NCBI GenBank assembly: GCA_020073005.1
Contig: JAIQFX010000029.1
Span: forward strand, 1-54,380
Length of the DNA stretch: 54,380 nucleotides
From: Terriglobia bacterium
GTDB taxonomy: Bacteria; Acidobacteriota; Vicinamibacteria; Vicinamibacterales; CAVVIG01
Direction: 5' to 3'
The notes below the pieces were generated by a model, which was given only the letters and a program-made list of their open reading frames with translations, was not told the DNA's origin and made no database searches. Made by a program: the position numbers and the translations under genes. Below are positions 1,903 through 31,602 of the stretch, one piece after another. The number at the start of each line of letters is the position of its first letter. Position 1 is the first letter of the stretch.

Positions 1903-3864
1903 TCATCGCTGTTGTTGTCCGGTGCTCGTCGTCGCCGGCCTGGCCTTGCGCTCGTTGACGAGCTTCTGGAACTCCGCATCGTCGAGATAGACGACGTTCA
2001 CCCAGACCTGCAGCATGTCGTCGACGCTGCGCTCGCCGAAGCCGACCCACATGTTCGGATCCGGATTGCGCCGGTTGGCCGACGTGTTGTCGTGGATGCC
2101 GATCATGTGGAGCACGGTGCCGGCGGGCAGCAGCGGCGCCACCTCGTCCGCGTAGACGTAATTGATGTGCCAGTTGAAGTCGAAGTGATCGACCGAGCTC
2201 AGGATCTGCGTCCGGTTGTTGGCCGGATCGATCGCCTCGAGCGTCATGCCGCGGCCGCGCATGTGCATGTGCGGCTGGAACGCGTCGATGCGCGCGTTGC
2301 GCGGCAGGCGGAAGTAGCCGTCGGTCCGGACGACGGAGTTCGGCGGCACTTCGAGCTCGTCGTTCGGGATGTTGCGCATCGCGATCGAGCGGACCTGGTA
2401 CTTCGGCGTCACGCCCTTCGGGTAGAACGTGAACGCGATCGTCGTCTTGTTGTGCTGCTCGCTGCCGATCGCGAAGTAGTGCATGTCGAAGCGCAGGCGC
2501 GTGCCCTTCTTCAGCAGCCGGCCCGTGTTGTCGCCGAAGATGTCGCCGTACTTGCCGACGGCGTACTCGTGGAGCTGCACGCCGGTCTCGGGCGTGCCGT
2601 CCGGCGCGTCGGGCTCGATCGCGTAGATCACGGCGTGATGGACGATCTTCGGGTTGCTCGGCTTGATCTCCATCGCCTTGATCCAGCGATCCTCGGGCAT
2701 CACGACGTCGGCGAACTGATCGATCCACCAGTCGGGGCCGGTGGAGTACATCGTGAAGTCGTTGGGCGTGGTGACCTTCAGATCCGGCTCGCCGATGAAC
2801 CAGGCGGCTTCGGACGGGAACGTCATCGGCTTCGGCATGTCGGCCGCATTGCCCATCGGCGCGCCCTGATCGACCCAGCGCGTGATCGTCGCGATCTCAG
2901 TGTCGCTGAGCGACCGATCGTTCTTGTACTGCTTGATGCCGACGGTCTTGTCGAGGTGCCACGGCGGCATGTCGCGATTCGCCACGCGCTGCTGAATCGA
3001 CTTCGCCCACGGCCGGACTTCCTCGTAGGTGACGAGCGACATCGGCGCGGACGTGCCCTGGTGATGGCACGTCTGGCATTTCGCCTGGAAGATCGGCGCG
3101 ACGTCTTTCGCAAACGTCGGGATTGCGGATTGAGGAGTGCGGAGTGCGGATTGCTGACTGACGCCGCCGACCGTGATCTTCAGCTGCGCGTTGGTCCAGC
3201 AGCAGTGATAGCCGAAGTTGCCGGCCGACTCGCCCGAGCCGTCGTCGACCACGGCCTGCAGGATGTACTCGCCCGGCGCGCTGAACGTCGCCGACGTCGA
3301 CGCCGTGCCGCCGGCTCCGTCGTCAGTCGCGGACACCGTCAGCGTGGTCGAGCCCGGCGCGGCCAGCGCCGCCGCCGCCGAGCGCAGCGACACGACAGGC
3401 GGCGTGTTGGAACTGATCATCTCGCTGTTGCCGCCGCGCGTCGTCCGCTGGTGATCGATCTGCCACACCGGGTTGAGCGTCGCGACGACTTTCTGCGTCT
3501 GCCCGTGGACCTTCAGCGTCCACGTCAGCGTCTGCTTGCCGAAGTCCTTCGGCACTTTCACGCTGAAGACGTCCTTGTGACGCCGCGTGACGAAGTGCGT
3601 CGGCTGACCGCGATCGCCGCCGGGCTCGAGCGCGTTGTCCGGCCCGACTGGCACGTCGACTTCCTCCTCGTAGTTGCGGTTCATGTACCCGAACCACATG
3701 TTGTACGAGCCGTCGTCGTTGACGTCGAAGCCCTCGTACGCGGGCGCGACCGCTTGTCCCGATGCGTGGCGCACCGTGACGAGCTGCGACGCCGGCGTCT
3801 GCGCGAGGAGCGGAAGAGTGGCCAGGACGCCGAGAACGACGGACAGTCTCAATGCGTTCTTCAT
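1903..3864 (-). CDS. Secreted cytochrome c / type-II copper monooxygenase-like fusion
   Basis: Predicted 653-residue exported protein with a signal peptide (MKNALRLSVVLGVLATLPLL). An N-terminal beta-rich region (about 25-230) is followed by a c-type haem site CQTCHH (Cys263, Cys266, His267) and then a domain related to the copper type-II ascorbate-dependent monooxygenases, with HHAVIY (His409/410) and FQPHMHMRG (His532/534) as likely copper ligands. Such fusions are frequent in acidobacteria; substrate unknown. ATG 3864 is preferred over one 24 bp upstream because it gives a clean signal peptide and has GGAGAG at a good distance. A 7-bp-period tandem repeat (3119-3160) encodes residues about 235-249, just before the haem domain. 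It lies downstream of the PQQ dehydrogenase on the same strand, so electron transfer between the two secreted proteins is possible (inference). Confidence 0.75.
   Translation of the reverse strand: MKNALRLSVVLGVLATLPLLAQTPASQLVTVRHASGQAVAPAYEGFDVNDDGSYNMWFGYMNRNYEEEVDVPVGPDNALEPGGDRGQPTHFVTRRHKDVFSVKVPKDFGKQTLTWTLKVHGQTQKVVATLNPVWQIDHQRTTRGGNSEMISSNTPPVVSLRSAAAALAAPGSTTLTVSATDDGAGGTASTSATFSAPGEYILQAVVDDGSGESAGNFGYHCCWTNAQLKITVGGVSQQSALRTPQSAIPTFAKDVAPIFQAKCQTCHHQGTSAPMSLVTYEEVRPWAKSIQQRVANRDMPPWHLDKTVGIKQYKNDRSLSDTEIATITRWVDQGAPMGNAADMPKPMTFPSEAAWFIGEPDLKVTTPNDFTMYSTGPDWWIDQFADVVMPEDRWIKAMEIKPSNPKIVHHAVIYAIEPDAPDGTPETGVQLHEYAVGKYGDIFGDNTGRLLKKGTRLRFDMHYFAIGSEQHNKTTIAFTFYPKGVTPKYQVRSIAMRNIPNDELEVPPNSVVRTDGYFRLPRNARIDAFQPHMHMRGRGMTLEAIDPANNRTQILSSVDHFDFNWHINYVYADEVAPLLPAGTVLHMIGIHDNTSANRRNPDPNMWVGFGERSVDDMLQVWVNVVYLDDAEFQKLVNERKARPATTSTGQQQR
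3119..3160. repeat. Heptameric tandem repeat, 6 units, inside a coding region
   Basis: Six consecutive 7-bp units can be read on the plus strand: GGGATTG, CGGATTG, AGGAGTG, CGGAGTG, CGGATTG, CTGACTG. The period is exactly seven with only substitutions between units. It lies in the linker before the haem domain of the 1903-3864 gene and stays in frame there, encoding a Ser/Gln/Pro-rich stretch. It is one of four arrays with this period in the window. Confidence 0.85.
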
Positions 3865-3893
3865 GTCTTCTCTCCACTTAATCCGCAATCAGT

Positions 3894-6092
3894 CTACTTT
3901 TTTTCAGGCAAGGCGAAGACATACAGCGCATTCCCCGTCTGCGCCGGACGAATCTCCGGAATAATCGTGCGCGGCACGACGCGCGGGCTGCCGCCGCCCT
4001 GCGCGCCCGACGTTACGGCGATGTACTGCCGGCCGCCGATGCTGAACGCGACGGGGTAGCCCATCACCGCGGTGCCCAGCCGCGTCTGCCACAGCGTCTC
4101 GCCCGTGCGCACGTCGAACGCGCGGAACGTGCGATCGAGATCGCCGACGAATCCCACGCCGCTCGCCGTCGTCAGCACCGCCGTGAGGAACGGCGCGCGC
4201 TGCTCCCGGCTCCACACTTCCTTCATCGTCTTCACGTCGAACGCCGCGAGCTTGCCGACGTTGCCGTCGCTGCCGGGCATCTCGAAGAACCGCCGGTCCG
4301 CGCCCGTGCCGCCGGAGCCGTTGGTCGGCTCGATCACGCGGCCGCGCATCTCCATGCACGACTGACTCAGCGGAATGATCAGCATCCCGCTCGGCTGGTG
4401 ATAGCTCATCGCCTGCCAGTTGTGGCCGCCCTCCGTGCTCGGGCACGACTGCACCCACTCGCCGGTCTTCTGCTCGAGGATGTCCGCCCGGTACTGCGGC
4501 GCGCCGGATTTCGGGTCGATCGAGTCGAACACGTTCTGGAACAGCGTTTCCTTGTAGCCGATGAACTGGCCGTTGCGCCGATCGAGCTTCCACAGGATGC
4601 CGGCCTTGCCGATCGTGAAGACGACTTTCTGATCGCCGATGTCGACGAGCACGCGCTCGAACACTTCGTCGAGATCGAGCGATTCGCCCGGCGCGTGCTG
4701 GTAGTGCCACGCGAGCGTGCCGTCTTTCGGCCGCAGCGCGAGCGTGGAGCTCGTGTAGAGCGCGTTGTCGAAGTTCGTCGTCCCGCGGCTCGCGCGCATC
4801 CACGGCTTGGCCTGCGCGACGCCCCAGTACGTGAGATCGAGATCCGGATCGTAACTGCCGGCAATCCATGTCTCGCCGCCGACGCGCAAATTGTCCGCGA
4901 GCGTGCCCCACGTCTCGGCGCCAGCTTGTCCGGTTCTGGCGATAGTGTTGAATTTCCAGAGCTGTTTGCCCGTCGCCGCCTCGTAGCCGCTGATCCAGCA
5001 GCCGTCGTTGCCGTAGCGATCGCAGCCGACCAGACCGTTCAGGACGACGCCCTTGATGACGATCGGGCCGGCGGTGTTGGCGTAGCCTTTCGCGCGATCC
5101 GCGATCGGCGTATCCCAGATCTTGTTGCCTGTGCGGGCGTCCAGCGCGACCAGGCGGGCGTCGGTCGTCGCCACGAACACCTTGTCCTGGTAGATCGCCA
5201 TGTTGCGCATGGCGGCGATGCCGGTGGCCGTATTCGGCCCGACGTGGTTCTCCCAGATCACGTCGCCGCTCCTCGCGTCGAGCGCCTGGACGATGTTCGT
5301 CGTGTTGGTGAGATAGATGACGCCGTTGTGGACGAGCGGGGTCGGCTCGTTCGTCTGCCCCTCGTTCATCGACCACACCCACTGAAGCTGAAGCTCCTTC
5401 ACGTTGTCGCGCGAGACCTGCGTCAGCGGGCTGTAGCTCCAGCCTTGATAGTTGCGGCGCGCCATCAGCCAGTCGCCGGGATCCTCGTTGCGCAGCATCT
5501 CGTCCGTGACCGGGACGTAGTTCTTCACGTCGCCCGTCACCGTGAGACCGAGCACGCCCGCATTCGCGGGAGCGCCGCCGCGTCCGCCGGGAGCTTGACC
5601 AGCGCCGCCGCGTCCCTGCGCGCCGCGTCCACCGGCGCCGCCCGCCACGGCGTTCGTCTGGACGGCGCCTCTCGGGCCGGTCGCCACCGTGCCGATGGCC
5701 GCCGTTGCCGCCGGCGTGAACGCCTGCGATCCGGCCGCGGCGCCGTTGGCCTGCAGGATGTACGTCGTGATCGCGAGGTACTGCGCCGCGTCGAGGCTCG
5801 GCGCGTTGGGCGGCATCGTCTGGATGTACTCGTACAGATCGCGCGTCGTGCGGGTGCGCCAGGTGTTCATGAAGTTCGCGCCCGCCAGCTGCGGCGCTTC
5901 GTTGCGCCCCGCGAGATCCGGCAGGTGGCAGCTCGCGCAGTTGGCCTGATACGCCGCGCGGCCGGCGGCCGCCTGTTCGGCGGTGAAGATCGCGGCCGGC
6001 GGTTGCTGGCCCGCCTTGGGAGCGGCGCCCGCAACGCCCAGCACTGCTGCAGCCACGGCCACACCGGCACTCCACACGCGTCGTGTCGTCAT
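3894..6092 (-). CDS. PQQ-dependent quinoprotein dehydrogenase with N-terminal cytochrome c domain
   Basis: Predicted 732-residue periplasmic oxidoreductase. After a signal peptide, a c-type haem site CASCH (Cys52, Cys55, His56) lies in a cytochrome c domain to about residue 115; a Gly/Ala-rich linker (about 140-185) leads to an eight-bladed PQQ propeller with typical strands such as [12 protein letters not shown], repeated ALDARTG-type blade ends and a closing blade ending in [12 protein letters not shown]. Quinoprotein alcohol/sugar dehydrogenases of this type pass electrons from PQQ to haem c. Here the haem is N-terminal, whereas classical quinohaemoprotein alcohol dehydrogenases carry it at the C-terminus. 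Substrate not predictable. AGGAGAAG lies about 10 nt before the ATG at 6092. The gene leads the minus-strand group with the copper monooxygenase-like gene 29 bp downstream. Confidence 0.85.
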
Positions 6093-6157: not shown

Positions 6158-7183
6158 TCAGTATTTCAGCGCCAGCTCGATCGCGTCGAGCTTATGGCGC
6201 GAGATCAGGCCGTACCAGTCGCGCACGCTGATCGTGCGCAGGCGCGTGATCTGCCGGCGCTTGGCGAGCATCCGCGGCAGCCGGACCAGCGCGGCCAGCC
6301 AGGCCTGGATCAGCACCACGAACAGCCGCGCGACGGAATATTCCTTCACGAATTCCGCGGACAGGCCCTGATGCGTCGCCGCCGCGTAGCCCTGCATGGC
6401 GTAGCGGTTCAGCGTGAAGAGGGGCGAGACGAAGACGAGATAGCGGGGCATCCACTTCCAGAGGCAGTACAGGCGATTGCGCTCGACGTGATACGCCTTG
6501 AAGACCGAGTAATTGCCGGAGGTCGCCGACTTCCGGTGACGCGCGCGCGCCTCGGGCACGTACCAGCACTTCCATCCCGCCAGCTGGCCCCGCACGCCGA
6601 GATCGAGATCCTCGAAGTAGCAGAAGAAGTCTTCGTCGTACCCGCCGATCCGATCGAGCATCGCCTTGCGCAGGGCGCACGCGCAGCCGTGCGGCGCGAG
6701 CACGGTCTCGGCGCGATCGTACTGGCCCTGATCTTTTTCCTGCCAGCCGCGCGGACGCGAGACGCCATCCGGGTAGAGGAGCAGGCCGACGGAGTCGAAG
6801 AAGTTCGGCTGATCGGCGCGGACCACGCGGCACGCCACCTGACCGACGTCCGGCTTGCCGGCGACGAACCGCATGACCTCCGCGATCGCATCCGGATCGC
6901 ACATCGCGTCGGAGTTCAGCAGAAAGATCCATTCGCCCTTCGCTCTCGCGAACCCGATGTTGTTGCCGCGAGCGAAGCCTTCGTTCCTGGCGTTGCGGAT
7001 GACGATCAGCGCGTCGCCGAACCGGCGCTGCGCCTGCTCGGCCGACCCGTCAGTGGAGCCGTTGTCCACCAGGATGACTTCGAGCGACGGCCAGGTCTGG
7101 GCGAAGAGCGACGCCAGCGCGTCCTGAAGCATGGCGCCGCCGTTCCAGTTGACGACGATCGCGCTGACAAGCGGAGCGGTCAT
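6158..7183 (-). CDS. Glycosyltransferase family 2 (rhamnosyltransferase-like)
   Basis: Predicted 341-residue cytoplasmic GT-A enzyme that would transfer a sugar from a nucleotide donor to a growing glycan. The N-terminus has the GT2 signature [11 protein letters not shown], then VDNGSTDGS at about residues 40-48, the metal/donor region [13 protein letters not shown], and the acceptor-side [14 protein letters not shown] basic C-terminal part without clear transmembrane helices may bind the membrane surface. The start ATG 7183 overlaps the stop of the upstream methyltransferase by 4 bp (ATGA), so the two are probably translated together. Acceptor and donor cannot be told from sequence. Confidence 0.85.
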
Positions 7184-11922: not shown

Positions 11923-11943
11923 CCCCAGCCCCCAGCCCCCAGC
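11923..11943. repeat. Heptameric tandem repeat, 3 units (intergenic)
   Basis: Three perfect copies of CCCCAGC lie 9 bp after the holB stop, in the 61-bp gap before ricT. The unit is one base from the CCCCAGT-type heptamers known as STRR sequences in filamentous cyanobacteria. It is the shortest and only intergenic member of the four 7-bp-period arrays in the window. Confidence 0.75.
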
Positions 11944-11955
11944 CACGTTGGATCG

Positions 11956-12758: not shown

Positions 12759-13612
12759 CGATTACCGCGGGCGATCCGGCGGGCATCGGTCCGGAAATCG
12801 CGGCGCGCGCCGCGGCCGATCCGCGCGTGCTCGAGGCGTGCGAGCCGGTGATCTACGCGCCGCCGTCGTCGCCGGCGTTCACGCCGGGCGTGCTGAGCGG
12901 CGATGCCGGCCGCGCGGCGTACGACGTGATCGTGCGCGCCGTCGATGACGCGCAGCGCGGCACCGTGCAGGCGATCGCGACGGCGCCGGTGAACAAGGAA
13001 GCGTTCCGCCTCGCGGGCCTGCCGTGGCACGGGCATACGGATCTCCTGGCCCACCTCACCGGCGCGAGCGACGTCGCGATGATGTTCGACTCCGACGCGC
13101 TCCGCGTCGTGCTCGCGACGGTCCACATCCCGCTGGCGGAGGTGCCCCGCGCGCTGACCGCCGCGTCGCTTGAAAAGACGATCGCGCTGACCGCGCGCGA
13201 GCTGCCGCGCTTCGGCGTGGCGCGGCCGCGCATCGCGGTCGCCGGTCTGAATCCGCACGCGGGTGAGCACGGACTTTTCGGCTGCGAAGAGCAGACCGCG
13301 ATGGCGCCGGCGATCGCGGCGTGCCGGTCGCGCGGCATCGACGTGGCCGGACCGTTTCCCGCGGACACTGTTTTCGTCCGTGCGCGCCGCGGCGAGTTCG
13401 ACGTCGTCGTCGCGTGCTATCACGATCAAGGCTTGATTCCGGTCAAGCTCGTCGCGTTCGGCCGGGCCGTCAACGTGACGCTCGGTCTGCCGATCGTGCG
13501 CACGTCGGTCGATCACGGAACGGCATTCGACATCGCCGGCAAGGGCGTCGCGGATCCGCAGAGCATGATTGCCGCGGTCCTGCTGGCCGCGCGGCTGGCG
13601 AGGTCCGCCTGA
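12740..13612 (+). CDS. pdxA: 4-hydroxythreonine-4-phosphate dehydrogenase
   Basis: Predicted 290-residue enzyme of the DXP-dependent pyridoxal phosphate pathway, oxidising 4-phosphohydroxy-L-threonine with NAD. Motifs: VAITAGDPAGIGPEI at the N-terminus, ATAPVNKEAFRLAG, PWHGHTDLLAHLTG, VAGLNPHAGEHGLFG, ACYHDQGLIPVKL and RTSVDHGTAFDIAGKG, including the conserved metal-ligand histidines. It is about 40 residues shorter than the Escherichia coli protein because the segment between the first strand and the TAPVNK motif is compact. ATG 12740 lies inside the ricT tail and gives the family N-terminus directly. The TGA stop falls in the loop of the first hairpin of the repeat at 13603-13660. Confidence 0.9.
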   Translation: MRLPRVAITAGDPAGIGPEIAARAAADPRVLEACEPVIYAPPSSPAFTPGVLSGDAGRAAYDVIVRAVDDAQRGTVQAIATAPVNKEAFRLAGLPWHGHTDLLAHLTGASDVAMMFDSDALRVVLATVHIPLAEVPRALTAASLEKTIALTARELPRFGVARPRIAVAGLNPHAGEHGLFGCEEQTAMAPAIAACRSRGIDVAGPFPADTVFVRARRGEFDVVVACYHDQGLIPVKLVAFGRAVNVTLGLPIVRTSVDHGTAFDIAGKGVADPQSMIAAVLLAARLARSA

Positions 13613-19024: not shown

Positions 19025-20119
19025 CTAGGTCTCAGCGACGAGATCCGCGACGAGCCGGCCGACGGCGAGGCACGACGTCAGGCCGGGCGAGTCCATGCCG
19101 GCCGCCTGCACGATCGCGGGATTGTCGCGATCCCGTCGAATCAGAAAATCCGCGAACGACTCGGTCGGGGGATGCAGCTTCGCGCGGATGCCGCTCCCTG
19201 ACAGCCGCAGGTCCGCGAGCGTGACGCCCTTCAGCAGCCGCCGCGCCGGCTCCACGAACGCGTCGACCGGCAGTCGATCGTTCTCGTAATCATCCTTGCG
19301 ATCCTGATACCGGATCGTCGGGCCGAGCCAGACCGCGCCGCCGATCGTGCGGACCAGATGGACGCCGAGTCCGTGTCCCGATGCGTGCGGCAGCGGATAC
19401 ACGAGCCCGTTGACGAGCGATCGCTTCGCCGGCACGAATTCCGCGTACTCGCCGCGGCACGGGTAGATGGTGAAGCGCTCGCCGCCCAGCATCGCGGAGA
19501 CGTCGTCCGCGTAGAGTCCGGCCGCGTTGACCACGACGCGCGCGGCGATCGTTTCGCGTTCGGTGTGGACACGCATGCCGGCGCCCTCGCGATCCGCGCC
19601 GACGAGGCGCGTGCCAGGCAGCAGGATCACGCCGCCAGCTTCGCCGTCCCGCGCGAGCGCCTTGACCAGCGCTTCGGCTTCGACGACGCCGCTGTCGGGC
19701 GACCAGAGAGCGGCGGCGGCGCCGACCGCCGGCTCGCGCGCCGCGATGAACGCGCGGCCGACCAACTCGAGGCCGCTGACGCCGTTCGCCGCTCCGCGCG
19801 CGCGGAGCGTCTCGAGCGCCGCGACGTCGCCTTCATCGTGCGCGACGACGAGCTTGCCGCAGCGCGCGTGCGGCACGTGATGGCGCGCGCAGAATTCGTA
19901 GAGCAGGCGGCGGCCCTCGATGCAGAGCCGCGACTTGAGGGAGTCCGCCGGGTGATAGAGGCCCGCATGAATGACGCCGGAGTTGTGCGTGCTGGTGTCG
20001 AGCCCCGGCCGCGGATGCCGTTCGATCACGCACGCCGAGAGGCCGCGCCGGGCGATCGCCCGCGCGGAGGCGAGGCCGGTCACGCCGGCGCCTATGACAA
20101 GGACGTCGACGTGCTCCAT
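19025..20119 (-). CDS. FAD-dependent oxidoreductase, L-2-hydroxyglutarate oxidase type
   Basis: Predicted 364-residue flavoprotein of the DAO/LhgO family. The FAD-binding motif is [20 protein letters not shown] (about residues 6-25), followed by [20 protein letters not shown], a typical LhgO segment, and [11 protein letters not shown] in the middle; the C-terminal end has [17 protein letters not shown]. LhgO oxidises L-2-hydroxyglutarate to 2-oxoglutarate and feeds the quinone pool; related enzymes act on other 2-hydroxy acids, so the substrate is uncertain. ATG 20119 shares one base with the stop of the upstream methyltransferase gene (TGATG). Its location among polysaccharide genes may be incidental. 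Confidence 0.8.
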
Positions 20120-21192
20120 CAACTCCTGAAGCCGATCACGGCATAGTCGAAATGCGAGAACAGCAGACCGTTGAGGATCGTCGCGTTCGTGTTGACCGCG
20201 TGCATGAGCTCGACCAGCGCGCGGGCTGACGGATCGATCGAGGCCTGGACGCCGGGGGGCACCTCGACGGTGCGCATCCTGACGTGGTCCGGCGCGGGCG
20301 CGCTGTAGCGGATGGTGACGCGCTCGAAGCCGTTCGCCCGCACGAGGAACTGCAGCGTCTCGGGATGAATCGGCCGCACGTGCGTGAGATCGCGGATGTA
20401 GCTGCTGAAGAACGCGAGCCAGCACGCCGGGTTGATCGTCTCGAGCGCGATGACGGCGCCCGGCGTCAGCTTCTGCCGCGCGACCGCGAGCAGGCGCGCG
20501 AGGTACGACGGCTCGAGATGCTCGACCACCTGCGCCGACAGCAGGCCGCCGACGGACTCGTCGGGCAGCGACGAGAGAAACGCCAGCGCATCGCCGTGGA
20601 CCGCGTCGAGGCCGCGGGCCCGCGCGGCCTCCACCATCGCGTGATTCACGTCCACGCCGCGCGCCGGCACGCCGGCCGCCTTCAGCGCCGCCAGAAACTC
20701 GCCGCGCCCGCAGCCGATGTCCACGACATTTCGCGCGCCGGCAAACAGCGGGATGTACTCGCTCTGCTTTGCCTGAATGCTCTCGACCGAGCCGCGGAAC
20801 TGATCCTCGAACGCGAGATAGATGGCGTCGTCGTGAGCGCCGGTGGCGGGTGGCTGGTGGCTGGTGACTGGTGGCTGAGAGCTGAGAGCTGACGGCTGAA
20901 CGCTGGCTTTCCGCTCGAGCACGCCGATCTTCGTCCGCAGCTCCGCGATCTGCTCCTGCGCGCCCGCGTCGAGCTGGCGATCCTTGGTGTCGACGAACGC
21001 CGTGATCTGCTGCAGGTACGCGATCAGCGCGTGCGTCAGCGGCGCGAAGTCGTCGCGGGCGAGCGCCGGCTTCGCGTTCAACCGTTCGACGACGGCGTCC
21101 AGCGCGGTGAGCGCGTCGTTGTACCGCCGGTCGGCGTCGCGCCGCTCGCGCTCGAGGCGCTCGGGATCGATGGGGGACATGTCGGTGCCCAT
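20119..21192 (-). CDS. SAM-dependent methyltransferase with helical N-terminal domain
   Basis: Predicted 357 residues. Residues about 1-95 are strongly helical and charged, likely coiled coil; residues about 97-117 are a Ser/Gln/Pro-rich linker encoded by a 7-bp-period repeat; from about 125 a class I methyltransferase fold follows with [47 protein letters not shown] and a [12 protein letters not shown] strand. A helical region before such a domain is common in glycan-modifying or chain-terminating methyltransferases, but the substrate is unknown. ATG 21192 is taken as start; ATG 21180 is an alternative. Confidence 0.8.
20842..20904. repeat. Heptameric tandem repeat, 9 units, in a domain linker
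   Basis: Nine 7-bp units in register on the plus strand: GGTGGCG, GGTGGCT twice, GGTGACT, GGTGGCT, GAGAGCT twice, GACGGCT and GAACGCT. The units drift from GGTGGCT to GAGAGCT along the array without losing the period. Nine units make 63 bp, so the reading frame of the methyltransferase gene is kept (21 residues, period seven amino acids per three units). Confidence 0.85.
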
Positions 21193-26708: not shown

Positions 26709-27704
26709 ATGTCAAAACGAGCCATTATCACCGGGATCACCGGCCAGGACGGATCCTACCTTGCCGAGCTGCTGCTTTCGAAAGGCTATGAGGTCGTCGG
26801 CGTCGTCCGCCGCGCGAGCGCGCCGAATTACTGGCGCATCCAGCACATCCTCGATCGCGTAACCCTGCGGCCGGCCGATCTTCTCGATCAATTGTCGCTC
26901 ATCCGCCTCGTCGACGAAGTGCGCCCGCACGAGTTCTACAACCTGGCCGCGATGTCCTTCGTGCCCGCGTCGTGGGATCAGCCGATGCTCACCGGCGAAT
27001 TCAACGCGCAGGGCGTCACGCGGGTGCTCGAGGCGATCCGCCAGGTCGATCCGAAGATTCGCGTCTACCAGGCGTCGTCGAGCGAGATGTTCGGCAAGGT
27101 GCGCGAGGTGCCGCAGACGGAGATGACGCCGTTCTATCCGCGGAGCCCGTACGGCGTGTCGAAAGTCTTCGCGCACTACATCACGGTCAACTATCGCGAG
27201 AGCTACGATCTGTTCGCCGTCTCCGGCATGCTCTTCAACCACGAGTCGCCGCGGCGCGGTCTCGAGTTCGTGACGCGCAAGGTGACCGACGGCGTCGCGC
27301 GCATCAAGCTCGGGCTGTCCAAGACGCTCGCGCTCGGCAACCTCGACGCGCATCGCGACTGGGGATTCGCCGGCGACTACGTCCGCGCGATGTGGCTGAT
27401 GCTGCAGCAGGAGCGCGCCGACGATTTCGTCATCGCCACCGGCATCGCGCATTCGGTGCGCGATCTGGTCGAAGTCGCGTTCGGCCACGCGGGCCTCGAC
27501 TGGCAGACATACGTCACGCTCGATCCGAAGCTGATTCGTCCGGCCGAGGTCGAGCATCTCATCGGCGACTGCTCGAAGGCGAAGGCGCAGCTCGGCTGGC
27601 AGCCGGCCGTCGACTTCACGGGTCTCGTCAAGATGATGGTCGACGCCGACATCGAGCGCGTCGCGGCCGCGCCGCAGCTCGCAGACCGGCTCTCGACGAT
27701 CTAG
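26709..27704 (+). CDS. gmd: GDP-mannose 4,6-dehydratase
   Basis: Predicted 331-residue extended short-chain dehydrogenase that converts GDP-D-mannose to GDP-4-keto-6-deoxy-D-mannose. NADP-binding motif [19 protein letters not shown] at residues 9-27, then YNLAAMSFV, the Ser/Glu site ASSSEMFGK (about 122-130) and the Tyr148/Lys152 pair in [12 protein letters not shown]; the segment [12 protein letters not shown] is diagnostic for Gmd. ATG 26709 is used because the promoter would start transcription just upstream, excluding an in-frame TTG at 26700. The product can lead to fucose, rhamnose or perosamine; the aminotransferase and formyltransferase downstream favour perosamine (inference). Confidence 0.92.
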
Positions 27705-27721: not shown

Positions 27722-29074
27722 ATGAGTACACCCACTGCGATCACCACGCTGCTCTCCCGCATTCGCGACAGGCAGGCGCGCATCGGCGTCATCGGGCTCG
27801 GCTACGTCGGGCTGCCGCTGGCGTCCGAGTTCGCGCGCGCCGGATTCGACGTCACCGGCTTCGACGTGGACGCGTCGAAAGTGGCCGCGATCAACGCCGG
27901 CCGCAGCTACATCCCCGACGTCCCGCAGCACGAGCTGGCCGAGTCGGTGAAGGCCGGACGCCTGCGCGCGACGACGGACATGGCGAAACTGGCGGAGACG
28001 GACGTCGCGGACATCTGCGTCCCGACGCCGCTGCGCAAGACGAAGGATCCCGATCTGTCGTACGTGGTGAAGGCGCTCGAAGGCGTCGCCGCGTCGCTCA
28101 GAGCCGGTCAGCTGGTGATCCTCGAGTCGACGACCTATCCCGGCACGACCGACGAGGTGGCGCTGCCGATGCTCGAGGCGCGCGGCTTCAAGGCCGACCG
28201 CGACTTCTTCCTCGCGTTCTCGCCCGAGCGCGTCGATCCCGGCAATCCCACGTACTTGACGAAGAACATTCCGAAAGTCGTGGGCGGCCACGGCCCCGCG
28301 AGCATCGAGGCGGCCACGCTGCTGTACGCGCAGGTGGTATCGACGGTGGTGCCGGTCAGTTCGACGCGCGTCGCCGAAATGGTGAAGCTGCTCGAAAACA
28401 CGTTCCGCGCCGTCAACATCGGCCTGGTGAACGAGCTCGCGCAGATGTGCCACAAACTGGACATCGACGTGTGGGAAGTGATCGAGGCCGCCAAGACCAA
28501 GCCGTTCGGCTTCATGCCGTTCTATCCCGGCCCCGGGTTGGGCGGCCACTGCATCCCGATCGATCCGTACTATCTGTCGTGGAAGGCTCGGCAGAGCGGG
28601 TTCGAATGCCGCTTCATCGAGCTGGCCGGCCAGGTCAACTCGTCGATGCCCGACTTCGTCGTCGAGCGCGTCGCGGACGCGCTGAACACCGCGCGCAAGC
28701 CGATCAACGGGTCGCGCATCCATCTGTTCGGCATCGCGTACAAGAAGGACGTCGGCGACATGCGCGAGTCGCCGGCGCTGGACATCCTCGAGCTGCTGAC
28801 GCGCAAGGGCGCCGTCGTCTCGTACAGCGATCCGTTCGTGCCCTCGTTCAAGCACGGCGCGCACACGCTGGAGGCGGTGCCCGAAGGCGACGCGCTGCGC
28901 CGCGCGCCGGACTGCATCGTCATCTGCACGGATCACTCCAGCTTCAACTGGAAGACCGTCGTCGCCAGCGGCGTCCCCATCGTCGACACGCGGAACGCCT
29001 TGAAGGGCTACACCGCGCCGAACATCGTCCGCTTGTCGGGTCGCGTGACGGCGGCAGCGGCCGCCGCCGTTTAG
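27722..29074 (+). CDS. UDP-N-acetylhexosamine 6-dehydrogenase (WbpA/TviB-like)
   Basis: Predicted 450-residue NAD-dependent oxidase of nucleotide sugars to uronic acids. Rossmann motif IGVIGLGYVGLPLASEFARAG near residues 21-41 (split here as IGVIGLGYVGLPLA), SPERVDPGNP in the catalytic domain, and the catalytic Cys277 in GGHCIPIDPYYLSWKA. The GIAYKKDVGDMRESPA segment starts the C-terminal UDP-binding domain. The pattern fits UDP-GlcNAc 6-dehydrogenases such as WbpA better than UDP-glucose dehydrogenase. A long Ala-rich end follows. Gmd lies 17 bp upstream and a GT4 gene 3 bp downstream. Confidence 0.87.
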   Translation: MSTPTAITTLLSRIRDRQARIGVIGLGYVGLPLASEFARAGFDVTGFDVDASKVAAINAGRSYIPDVPQHELAESVKAGRLRATTDMAKLAETDVADICVPTPLRKTKDPDLSYVVKALEGVAASLRAGQLVILESTTYPGTTDEVALPMLEARGFKADRDFFLAFSPERVDPGNPTYLTKNIPKVVGGHGPASIEAATLLYAQVVSTVVPVSSTRVAEMVKLLENTFRAVNIGLVNELAQMCHKLDIDVWEVIEAAKTKPFGFMPFYPGPGLGGHCIPIDPYYLSWKARQSGFECRFIELAGQVNSSMPDFVVERVADALNTARKPINGSRIHLFGIAYKKDVGDMRESPALDILELLTRKGAVVSYSDPFVPSFKHGAHTLEAVPEGDALRRAPDCIVICTDHSSFNWKTVVASGVPIVDTRNALKGYTAPNIVRLSGRVTAAAAAAV

Positions 29075-29077
29075 GCG

Positions 29078-30379
29078 ATGAGGGGCCCGTCCCCCTTCCG
29101 CCGCGTCCTCTACGTTTCCTACGACGGCATGCTCGAACCGCTGGGCGAATCGCAGGTCGTCGCCTATCTGGAGCGCCTCGCCGATCGCGCCGCCATCACG
29201 CTGCTGTCGTTCGAGAAGCCGGCGGATCTCGCGGACGCCGCGCGCGTGGCGGCGATGCGCCAGCGGCTCGACCGCGCGGGCATCACGTGGATCGCGCGGG
29301 CGTACACCAAACGTCCGCCGGTGCTCTCCACGGCGTGGGACATCATCGTCGGGTGTCTGGCCGCGCGACGCTGGGCCCGCGCGGCGAGCGCCCAGCACCC
29401 GGCACCCGGCACCGAGCACCACGCACCCGGCACCCGGCACCCGGCACCCGGAATTGTGCATGCCCGCGGCTACGTTCCCGCGCTCATCGCGCTGCACGTC
29501 AAGCGCGCATCCGGCGCGCGGTTTCTTTTCGACATGCGCGGCTTCTGGATCGACGAGAAGGTCGAGGCTGGTCATTGGCCCGCCGGCGGACTCCTGTTTC
29601 GCGTCGGCAAATGGTGCGAGCGCCGGTTCTTCGCCGAGGCCGACGCGATCGTGTCGCTGACCGCGGCCGGCGTCCGCGAGTTTCCGAAGCTCGGACGTGT
29701 GCGCGAAGGCGTGCCGATCGTCGTGATTCCCACGTGCGCCGATCTGGACCGCTTTCAGCCTGCCGCGTCCGCGAGCGATGAGGACGCGCGGCGGCGCCGT
29801 CAGCTGGGGATCGACGGCGCGGTCGTGTTCGGGTGCGTCGGCACGCTGAGCAACTGGTACCTGCGCGAGGAGACGCTGTCGTACCTCGCGTGGCTCTCGA
29901 CGCGATTCGAACGGATGAAGGCGCTGATCGTCACGCGCGAGGACCACGATCGCCTGCGCGCCGACGCCGCGCGCGCCGGCCTGCCGGCCGATCGGCTGGT
30001 GCTCGCCCGCGCGCCGTTCGAGGAGATGCCGGCGCTGATGCGCCTCATGGACGCGGGCGTCTTCTTCATCCGCGTGTGTTTCTCGAAGCGGGCGTCGGCG
30101 GCGACGAAGCTGGCGGAGTTTCTCGGGTGCGGCGTTCCCGTCATCATCAACGACGGCATCGGCGACTCGGGCGACACGGTGCGGGCCGACGGCGTCGGCG
30201 TGGTCCTGCCGGACACGTCGCGGGCGGCCTTCGCGGCGTCCGAGGGCGCGGTGCGGTCGCTGCTGGCCGACGGCGGGGTCGCGGCCCGCTGCCGCGCGAC
30301 CGCCGTTCGCGAGTTCAGTCTGACCGAAGGCGCTGTACGATACGCGCAGCTGTACGACACACTGTGGGCACACGCATGA
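29078..30379 (+). CDS. Glycosyltransferase family 4 with repeat-encoded insertion
   Basis: Predicted 433-residue GT-B enzyme. N-terminal strand RRVLYVSYDGMLEPLGESQV, then VHARGYVPALIAL and FDMRGFWIDEKVEAG; C-terminal domain with FGCVGTLSNWYL and the donor loop FSKRASAATKLAEFLGCGVP, where the first Glu of E-x7-E is replaced, as in a known GT4 subgroup. Residues about 106-124 (QHPAPGTEHHAPGTRHPAPG) come from an 8-unit heptameric repeat inserted in a loop between helix and strand. It lies between two nucleotide-sugar dehydrogenase genes and overlaps the second by 4 bp, so it may use a uronic acid donor (inference). Confidence 0.82.
   Translation: MRGPSPFRRVLYVSYDGMLEPLGESQVVAYLERLADRAAITLLSFEKPADLADAARVAAMRQRLDRAGITWIARAYTKRPPVLSTAWDIIVGCLAARRWARAASAQHPAPGTEHHAPGTRHPAPGIVHARGYVPALIALHVKRASGARFLFDMRGFWIDEKVEAGHWPAGGLLFRVGKWCERRFFAEADAIVSLTAAGVREFPKLGRVREGVPIVVIPTCADLDRFQPAASASDEDARRRRQLGIDGAVVFGCVGTLSNWYLREETLSYLAWLSTRFERMKALIVTREDHDRLRADAARAGLPADRLVLARAPFEEMPALMRLMDAGVFFIRVCFSKRASAATKLAEFLGCGVPVIINDGIGDSGDTVRADGVGVVLPDTSRAAFAASEGAVRSLLADGGVAARCRATAVREFSLTEGAVRYAQLYDTLWAHA
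29394..29449. repeat. Heptameric tandem repeat, 8 units, in a glycosyltransferase loop
   Basis: Eight 7-bp units: AGCACCC, GGCACCC, GGCACCG, AGCACCA, CGCACCC and GGCACCC three times. It encodes a His/Pro/Gly-rich loop in the GT4 gene. Eight units give 56 bp, which is not a multiple of three, so the array alone would shift the frame; flanking bases restore it, meaning the insertion was selected or trimmed to stay in frame. Confidence 0.85.
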
Positions 30380-31602
30380 GTGACGTGAGAGTTCCCCGGC
30401 ATTCGCACCGCCACGCGCCGGTCGATCTGTGCATCGTCGGCGGCGCGGGCCATGTGGGATTGCCGCTCGGGCTGGCGTTCGCGGCCAAGGGCCTCAGCGT
30501 GGTGCTGTACGACCTCAACGAGGGCGTGCTGGATCAGCTGCGGCAGGGCCGCATGCCGTTTGTCGAGTACGGGGCCGACGAGATCCTGCCGCAGGTCCTC
30601 GACCGCACGCTGTTCCTCTCGTCGGATCCGGAGGACGTCTCGGCGGCGCGCGCCGTGATCGTCGCGATCGGCACGCCCGTCGACGAGTACCTGAATCCGA
30701 AGCTGCGCGGGCTGCTCGAGCTGATCGAGACGCTGCGGCCGCACCTGCGCGCGCCGCAGACGATCGTCATCCGCAGCACCGTCTACCCGCGGACGTGCCG
30801 GCAGGTGAAAGCGCTTCTCGAGCGCGACGGCCAGCGCTGGCAGGTCGCGTACTGTCCGGAGCGCATCGCGCAGGGCCACGCGATCAAGGAGCTGCGCGAG
30901 CTGCCGCAGCTCGTGTCGGCGCTGAGCGACGAGGCGCTGTCGGCCGCGACGAAGCTGTTCTCGGCCATCGCTCCGCGTGTGATCGCGGTCAGCGTCGAAG
31001 AGGCGGAGCTGGCGAAGCTGTTCTCGAATGCCTGGCGCTACATTCAGTTCGCGGCGGCCAATCAGTTCTACATGATGGCGAACGAGCTCGGCGTGGACTT
31101 CAACCGGGTCCGCGCGGCGATGGTCGACGGATACGGGCGCGCGGCGACGCTGCCCACGGCAGGCTTTGCCGCCGGCCCGTGTCTGCTGAAGGACACGCTG
31201 CAGCTCGCGGCGTTCAACAACAACAACTTCACGCTGGGCCACGCCGCGATGATGGTCAACGAAGGTCTGCCGGGGTTCATCGTCGAGGGACTGCGGCGCC
31301 GGTACGATCTCGCGAAGACCCGCGTCGGCATTCTCGGGATGGCGTTCAAGGCGGACATCGACGACACGCGGGACTCGCTGTCCTACAAGCTCGGCAAGAT
31401 TCTGCGGTTTCACGGCGCGCAGGTCGGATACTCGGACGAGTTCGCGAAGGATCCGACGTTCGTGAGCAAGGAACAGCTGGTGCAGTCGTCCGACGTCGTG
31501 ATCGTCGGCGTGCCTCACGCCGCCTACAAGACGCTCGCGATCCCGGCCACGGTCGACCTCGTGGACGTCTGGGGCGTCGTCAGGCCGGGCGCGTCCCTCT
31601 GA
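30376..31602 (+). CDS. Nucleotide-sugar dehydrogenase (WecC/UDP-ManNAc dehydrogenase-like)
   Basis: Predicted 408-residue NAD-dependent dehydrogenase, a second and clearly different copy in this operon. NAD motif CIVGGAGHVGLPLGLAFAAKG, then VIVAIGTPVDEYLNP, YCPERIAQGHAIKELRELPQ (Pro-Glu-Arg block) and the catalytic Cys269 in AGPCLLKDTLQLAAF; LGMAFKADIDDTRDSLSYKL starts the last domain. These blocks fit the UDP-ManNAc(A)/WecC branch. Substrate remains uncertain. ATG overlaps the GT4 stop (ATGA) and the stop shares one base with the next ATG. Confidence 0.85.
   Translation: MSDVRVPRHSHRHAPVDLCIVGGAGHVGLPLGLAFAAKGLSVVLYDLNEGVLDQLRQGRMPFVEYGADEILPQVLDRTLFLSSDPEDVSAARAVIVAIGTPVDEYLNPKLRGLLELIETLRPHLRAPQTIVIRSTVYPRTCRQVKALLERDGQRWQVAYCPERIAQGHAIKELRELPQLVSALSDEALSAATKLFSAIAPRVIAVSVEEAELAKLFSNAWRYIQFAAANQFYMMANELGVDFNRVRAAMVDGYGRAATLPTAGFAAGPCLLKDTLQLAAFNNNNFTLGHAAMMVNEGLPGFIVEGLRRRYDLAKTRVGILGMAFKADIDDTRDSLSYKLGKILRFHGAQVGYSDEFAKDPTFVSKEQLVQSSDVVIVGVPHAAYKTLAIPATVDLVDVWGVVRPGASL

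Follow-up and report, generated by a model that had tools for sequence, protein, structure and literature searches.

Heptanucleotides have been described as a favored unit of long repeats in bacteria, with polymerase slippage proposed as their source (Mrazek et al. 2007, as cited in PMC4692102 and PMC4679880). In Xanthomonas, arrays of the unit GGGAATC occur many times per genome, with 11% and 7% of them inside genes in two genomes, and when two Xanthomonas species are compared, most repeats lie between the same genes, vary in length and sequence, and in some cases form inverted pairs (PMC4692102). Arrays of TAACTGA are found in marine Beggiatoaceae and cyanobacteria, where some are read through in proteins (PMC4679880). 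Another case is neuO, a glycan-modifying gene of E. coli K1, in which a heptanucleotide array of 3–53 repeats lies in the 5′ region, length variants have been shown, repeat numbers divisible by three give full-length protein, and 42 of 64 carrier genomes are out of frame (PMC13001214).

Here we describe a heptamer array within a putative glycosyltransferase gene of an Acidobacteria-like lineage. The arrays of this lineage have in common with other long 7-nt simple sequence repeats the preference for period 7; they differ in the lineage itself and in that some of them encode parts of loops in housekeeping enzymes. As with GGGAATC of Xanthomonas and GGGGA(T/C)T of Nostoc, there are many arrays, a minority of them genic, sites between the same genes and inverted pairs; however, those arrays consist of one G-rich, quadruplex-forming unit type (PMC4692102), whereas the units here differ strongly by locus and include AT-rich ones. 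Heptamer arrays that are read through in proteins are shared with the TAACTGA system, although the Beggiatoaceae genome studied has one dominant unit, placed for the most part immediately before start codons (PMC4679880), unlike here. As in neuO, the array occupies a gene of glycan metabolism and unit numbers in multiples of three keep the frame, but it is interrupted and lies further into the gene. Heptanucleotide repeats are thus, on these sources, already known in other phyla, and the arrays found here extend them to an Acidobacteria-like lineage; our literature search found no report of heptanucleotide repeats in Acidobacteria.

Results

A heptamer array in a putative GT4-type glycosyltransferase gene

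The window, by which we mean the whole stretch of 54,380 nucleotides that was analyzed, is one entire contig (C99) of a 5.86-Mb assembly (G000). The array and its surroundings comprise the following features.

26709–27704, plus strand: GDP-mannose 4,6-dehydratase (TIGR01472, 427.8 bits; cut-off 415)
27722–29074, plus strand: nucleotide-sugar dehydrogenase, upstream (TIGR03026, 448 bits; cut-off 189.8)
29078–30379, plus strand: putative GT-B/GT4-type glycosyltransferase, 433 amino acids (Pfam just under gathering scores; AlphaFold2; Foldseek)
29391–29451, plus strand: period-7 tandem array, consensus CCCGGCA/GGCACCC, 8.7 copies (Tandem Repeats Finder), in frame, coding for residues ~106–124
29423–29451, plus strand: pure part of the array, an exact period-7 run of ~4.1 units over its last 29 bases
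30364–31602, plus strand: nucleotide-sugar dehydrogenase, downstream (TIGR03026, 256.8 bits; cut-off 189.8)

The glycosyltransferase scores 25.4 bits with Glycos_transf_1 (cut-off 26.4) and 28.9 bits with Glyco_trans_4_4 (cut-off 29.7), and a sequence search against solved structures gave no match. Its AlphaFold2 model, built from 46 aligned sequences, has a mean pLDDT of 92.8. Foldseek matched this model to MshA, BshA, PimB′, WaaG and HepE with E values of ~1e-16 to 1e-13 and query TM scores mostly of 0.6–0.7 (0.42–0.43 for two MshA chains). Judged by its predicted structure, the protein is a GT4-type glycosyltransferase with a GT-B fold of two Rossmann domains. Position 339, which we take to be the place of the first Glu in the E-x7-E motif of GT4 enzymes, is Ala (A339), and E347 is invariant in the alignment of 46. 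Among the matches listed, the closest named relatives come from Acidobacteria metagenome assemblies, the best being on contig JACPZW010000073.1 (NC_groundwater_900). Further neighbors of the gene match sugar-modifying families.

Tandem Repeats Finder gave the array 87% matches and a score of 87, the highest of the 58 rows for the window. Between 29394 and 29449 its units read AGCACCC, GGCACCC, GGCACCG, AGCACCA, CGCACCC, GGCACCC, GGCACCC and GGCACCC, four of the eight being identical and the other four carrying one or two differences. It lies roughly one quarter along the length of the gene, and the long pure tract expected of a phase-variable repeat was not found in it, the longest being ~4.1 units. 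When periods 4–15 were scanned for exact runs with at least 14 repeated bases, only period 7 gave any in the window. When 353 kb from this genome were shuffled once under a third-order Markov model, no such period-7 runs appeared, against four observed, and periods 10 and 15 gave one run each. The perfect triple of ACCCGGC occurs once in the 5.86-Mb assembly, at this array; it is also present in five other genomes, most often in G029 (20), and a control pattern matched in 1 of 60 genomes.

The original prediction, made from the window alone, had described eight heptamers at 29394–29449 that encode an insert at about residues 106–124 of a GT4 enzyme, lying between two sugar dehydrogenase genes. 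The repeat search, the unit list (which in frame gives these residues) and the shuffle agree with this, and both flanking genes score above the TIGR03026 cut-off. The prediction also held that a change of one or two units would shift the frame, and the computed products confirm it: changes of −1, +1, −2 and +2 units yield 191, 236, 229 and 198 amino acids in place of 433, whereas −3 and +3 units keep the frame and yield 426 and 440.

The array lengthens a loop that is short in most relatives

We compared the loop from D88 to H128 in 81 sequences, comprising the window's own and the best 80 of at least 556 relatives (two with an internal stop in the matched stretch were retained). It measures 22 amino acids in 78 of them, in keeping with the predicted insert in a conserved GT4-type fold that homologues lack. 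The exceptions are the window (41 amino acids), the sister species G001 (28) and G018 (26). In G018 the loop is 4 amino acids longer despite the absence of arrays in the 100 kb sampled, which counts against a microsatellite origin. Only 4 of 27 family genomes, this one included, have a glycosyltransferase match at E ≤ 1e-40, which limits placement of the insert to the genus. In the AlphaFold2 model, the insert joins helix 81–105 to strand 126–130 of the N-terminal domain and contains the part of lowest confidence, with block means of 75 and 57.

Sister species carry arrays at some of the same sites, often with different units

The G001 glycosyltransferase has 88% protein identity to that of the window. 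Its corresponding loop is encoded in part by CCAGCCA units in place of CCCGGCA, is in frame, and is a net 39 bp, or 13 residues, shorter. To extend the comparison, we used fetched syntenic stretches. Fourteen G001 array sites were considered, of which one had no flank, three were unmappable and ten could be compared; at these ten, this genome has no array at six, another unit at three and the same unit at one. In the reverse direction, eight sites gave one unmapped, one without an array, one weak, three with another unit and two with the same unit. The partner species therefore lacks an array at 7 of the 17 mapped comparisons, a count that spans the two directions, which share sites. To judge from these alignments, array position is not generally conserved between the sister species: some arrays recur at orthologous sites with other units or lengths, and others are present in one species only. 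Three further arrays of the window are listed here.

3120–3154, plus strand: weaker heptamer array of GGATTGC type in a called gene at 1903–3888 (Tandem Repeats Finder score 49)
11923–11944, plus strand: intergenic heptamer array of CCCCAGC (Tandem Repeats Finder); the orthologous G001 site has a short heptamer array of other units
20842–20892, minus strand: heptamer array, GGTGGCT then GCTGAGA, within a methyltransferase gene at 20119–21192 (Tandem Repeats Finder, alignment, Pfam)

The methyltransferase site was left unmapped by our script; by eye, both species have arrays there, with partly different units. The G001 place orthologous to 3120–3154 holds a REP-like palindrome. Such REP-like, GC-rich palindromes were seen at ~5255–5320 of locus L070 (G001:C75) and at the G001 orthologues of window positions 3134 and 11923; one has a GTAG head, and in this genome either a heptamer array or a short gap takes their place. 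We also observed AT-rich heptamer arrays, of TTCAGAT type, in a 67% GC genome (loci L062, L054 and L070, and the G001 orthologue of window position 1885).

Heptamer arrays are numerous in samples of this genome and several relatives and lie mainly outside genes

To obtain a period spectrum, we took samples of 13 genomes and counted, for each period from 4 to 12, exact runs of 11 or more repeated bases. At period 7 this genome gave 14 runs in 353 kb (second came period 9, with 7), G001 gave 53 in 470 kb (next highest count, 16) and G029 gave 79 in 440 kb (next highest count, 14). Four other genomes had 5–8 such runs in 60–120 kb, and G045 had 2 in 40 kb. None were found in the samples of G018 (100 kb), G039 (60 kb), G057, G027 and G021 (40 kb each), zero counts that are weak, except perhaps for G018. 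Sampling was not random: in G029, G045, G001 and other genomes, part of the stretches had been picked around matches. Periods 8 and 9 were also above shuffle in G001, less strongly than period 7. In the samples of this genome, G001 and G029, period 7 exceeds every other period counted, and over the stretches sampled heptamer arrays are more frequent than chance predicts, as described for long heptanucleotide repeats. Perfect triples of ACCAGCC gave 35, 77 and 21 matches in the three genomes of the genus (overlapping ones counted) and were found in 4 of 57 other genomes; a reversed-pattern control matched in 2 of 60.

Arrays are depleted inside genes and lie mainly outside coding sequence. Genes called by a home-made program contain 5 of the 14 arrays of this genome and 18 of the 53 of G001, where the coding fractions are 0.93 and 0.89; some of these genes are weak calls or carry the array in their last codons. 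Arrays outside genes or at gene edges favor gaps between same-strand genes (38 of 43, against 284 of 405 intergenic gaps; p ~0.005–0.012 for gaps of at least 20 bp and arrays with two neighbors, with runs at one site not independent). Neighboring runs within 150 bp were inverted copies of each other in 24 of 73 pairs from the seven genomes sampled, against ~10–11 expected at random. Inverted, or foldback, pairs were seen in G001 at the ribosomal-protein junctions L4–L23, L2–S19, S11–S4, RpoA–L17 and S14–S8.

~1120–1290, 2350–2470, 6410–6600, 13290–13430 and 15200–15345 of L070 (G001:C75): foldback pairs at ribosomal-protein operon junctions

At L4–L23, L2–S19, S11–S4 and RpoA–L17 this genome (G000:C152) has short gaps, and at S14–S8 it has other sequence. 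At the SecY–Adk junction the larger inverted pair is that of this genome.

We also looked for genes split by an array. Eleven runs lie at gene edges; one, between divergent genes, was left out, and Pfam scans of the ten same-strand pairs revealed none that was clearly one broken gene, although three were judged on one member, the other having no match, and one was ambiguous. The ambiguous pair corresponds to the catalytic part and the B12-binding part of methylmalonyl-CoA mutase, an enzyme that some organisms make as a single chain and others as two.

Arrays within housekeeping enzymes

Eight genes chosen for their internal arrays, a set that carries no enrichment statistic for surface versus other genes, were searched with Pfam. 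They matched the rRNA dimethylase RsmA, aspartokinase, a menaquinone-pathway enzyme (MqnA, named chorismate dehydratase by solved relatives), a protein kinase, a molybdopterin enzyme and a methyltransferase, and two had no match. A ninth array-bearing gene, a weak call, also had no Pfam match; genes with the array in their last codons were mostly left out of the scan.

In aspartokinase the array-bearing loop is 38 amino acids in G001 against 31 in 12 other aligned family genomes (one fragment and a distant second aspartokinase type set aside), a gain of 21 bp, or three units. RsmA was aligned from 22 of 24 matched genomes (two partial ones were dropped). One and the same loop bears arrays in G001 and, built of a different unit (CCCGAAC), in G017, with a degenerate one in this genome; in the family this loop varies in length without arrays too (18–44 amino acids). 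MqnA and the methyltransferase have in-frame arrays in both sister species. All ten in-gene array copies checked, with both glycosyltransferases counted, are open across the array, a sample that is not neutral since intact frames are easier to find by called frames and tblastn. The peptide PATSHQP, present in the G001 glycosyltransferase, RsmA and MqnA, owes its recurrence to a shared DNA unit.

Discussion

We consider it probable, at roughly three chances in four, that the glycosyltransferase array belongs to a class of heptanucleotide microsatellites spread through the genome, and is one of those that lie in coding sequence. Its units would turn over locally, the loop would tolerate it, and selection would keep the frame. 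Such arrays would grow and turn over in 7-base steps by polymerase slippage, which template switching may sometimes join, yielding inverted pairs. Should an array arise in a loop able to take up extra residues, only versions that preserve the frame would survive purifying selection. In the glycosyltransferase, the array lengthens the loop between helix 81–105 and strand 126–130, and the extension probably affects catalysis little. A slip of one or two units would create a null mutant, as for any frameshift.

How does this explanation compare with a phase-variable switch? The original prediction saw the behavior expected of a contingency locus that controls a surface glycan. At such a locus, slippage of one or two units would turn the glycosyltransferase off and on and diversify the glycan. 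The unit length is not a multiple of three, gains or losses of one or two units truncate the protein, the gene sits within a nucleotide-sugar cluster, and neuO offers a heptanucleotide precedent. This part of the prediction is weakened, however: like arrays occur in housekeeping enzymes and mostly outside genes, the array is short and interrupted, with only ~4 pure units against the 3–53 repeats of neuO, the glycosyltransferase is in frame in both species where most neuO carriers are not (42 of 64 out of frame; PMC13001214), and none of the ten array-edge gene pairs is clearly one broken gene. Since similar repeats are scattered through the genome, housekeeping enzymes included, the array is better read as a tolerated, frame-kept microsatellite than as a switch, and we regard a contingency locus as unlikely. 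Quite unlikely, too, is the spread of a mobile foldback element made of inverted heptamer pairs, of which the glycosyltransferase array would be a one-armed remnant. Inverted pairs do exceed random pairing, G001 has foldbacks at L4–L23, L2–S19, S11–S4 and RpoA–L17 where this genome has short gaps, and the ACCAGCC unit is common to many loci within the genus. Yet by eye we saw no target-site duplication in filled and empty pairs and no second arm at the glycosyltransferase locus, and the window's unit is unique in the genome as a perfect triple, which argues for local growth.

The Pro/His/Gly stretch could instead be a selected linker or interaction segment of the glycosyltransferase, as its expansion in two sister species, Pro-rich in both, might suggest. 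This is very improbable given that PATSHQP recurs in the sister glycosyltransferase, RsmA and MqnA from a shared DNA unit, that the insert has low model confidence, and that the best relatives make do with the plain 22-residue loop in 78 of 81 sequences. An assembly artefact is scarcely credible: a relative that was deposited separately (contig JACPZW010000073.1) also has an array at the orthologous site, and the frame is intact. What speaks for it is that two contig ends of this genome (the end of C75 and the start of C48) lie within ~80 bases of sister-genome arrays, so that arrays may trouble assembly. Heptamer arrays may be under-counted in G000; the other contig ends looked at were not clearly near arrays.

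Although microsatellite turnover remains our preferred explanation for the array, slippage alone explains neither the dominance of period 7 nor the excess of inverted pairs. One speculative and rather doubtful possibility is that a dedicated process of 7-base-phased DNA growth, or a foldback element, seeds arrays at operon junctions, in protein loops and at similar sites, in some of them keeping place and phase and swapping the unit. Essential proteins would in this way continually receive in-frame loop insertions in steps of 7 residues.

Several ideas about the source of the arrays were tried and dropped. A fixed 4-base core with three variable bases fared poorly, as column heterogeneity reached p ≤ 0.05 in only 7 of 45 arrays and contiguous variable triples were found in 6 of 21, with 20% expected. 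A primase-site core of CAG/CTG was also considered: of the 76 distinct units, 30 contain CAG, where the background is 0.23. Since TCA, GAA, AAC and CCC are over-represented as well, we claim no specific core. Loss of mismatch repair was set aside, as each of the 14 genomes tested, whether rich or poor in arrays, has a mutS1 match, in 13 of them above the cut-off. In this genome, mutS1 is split over contigs G000:C154 and G000:C172, and each piece falls below the family cut-off. Inspection by eye of 22 stretches of G029, a single-contig genome with weak GC skew, showed no pattern of replication-strand bias.

Finally, we note that a heptamer array in a sugar-transferase gene is easily mistaken for a phase-variation switch, and that the way to tell is to ask whether such repeats also occur in housekeeping genes and between genes. 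The same sites with different units, together with the 21-bp gains in aspartokinase and RsmA, form a natural series for probing why 7-base units dominate among long repeats of bacteria. The same series bears on how repeats feed new loops into proteins.
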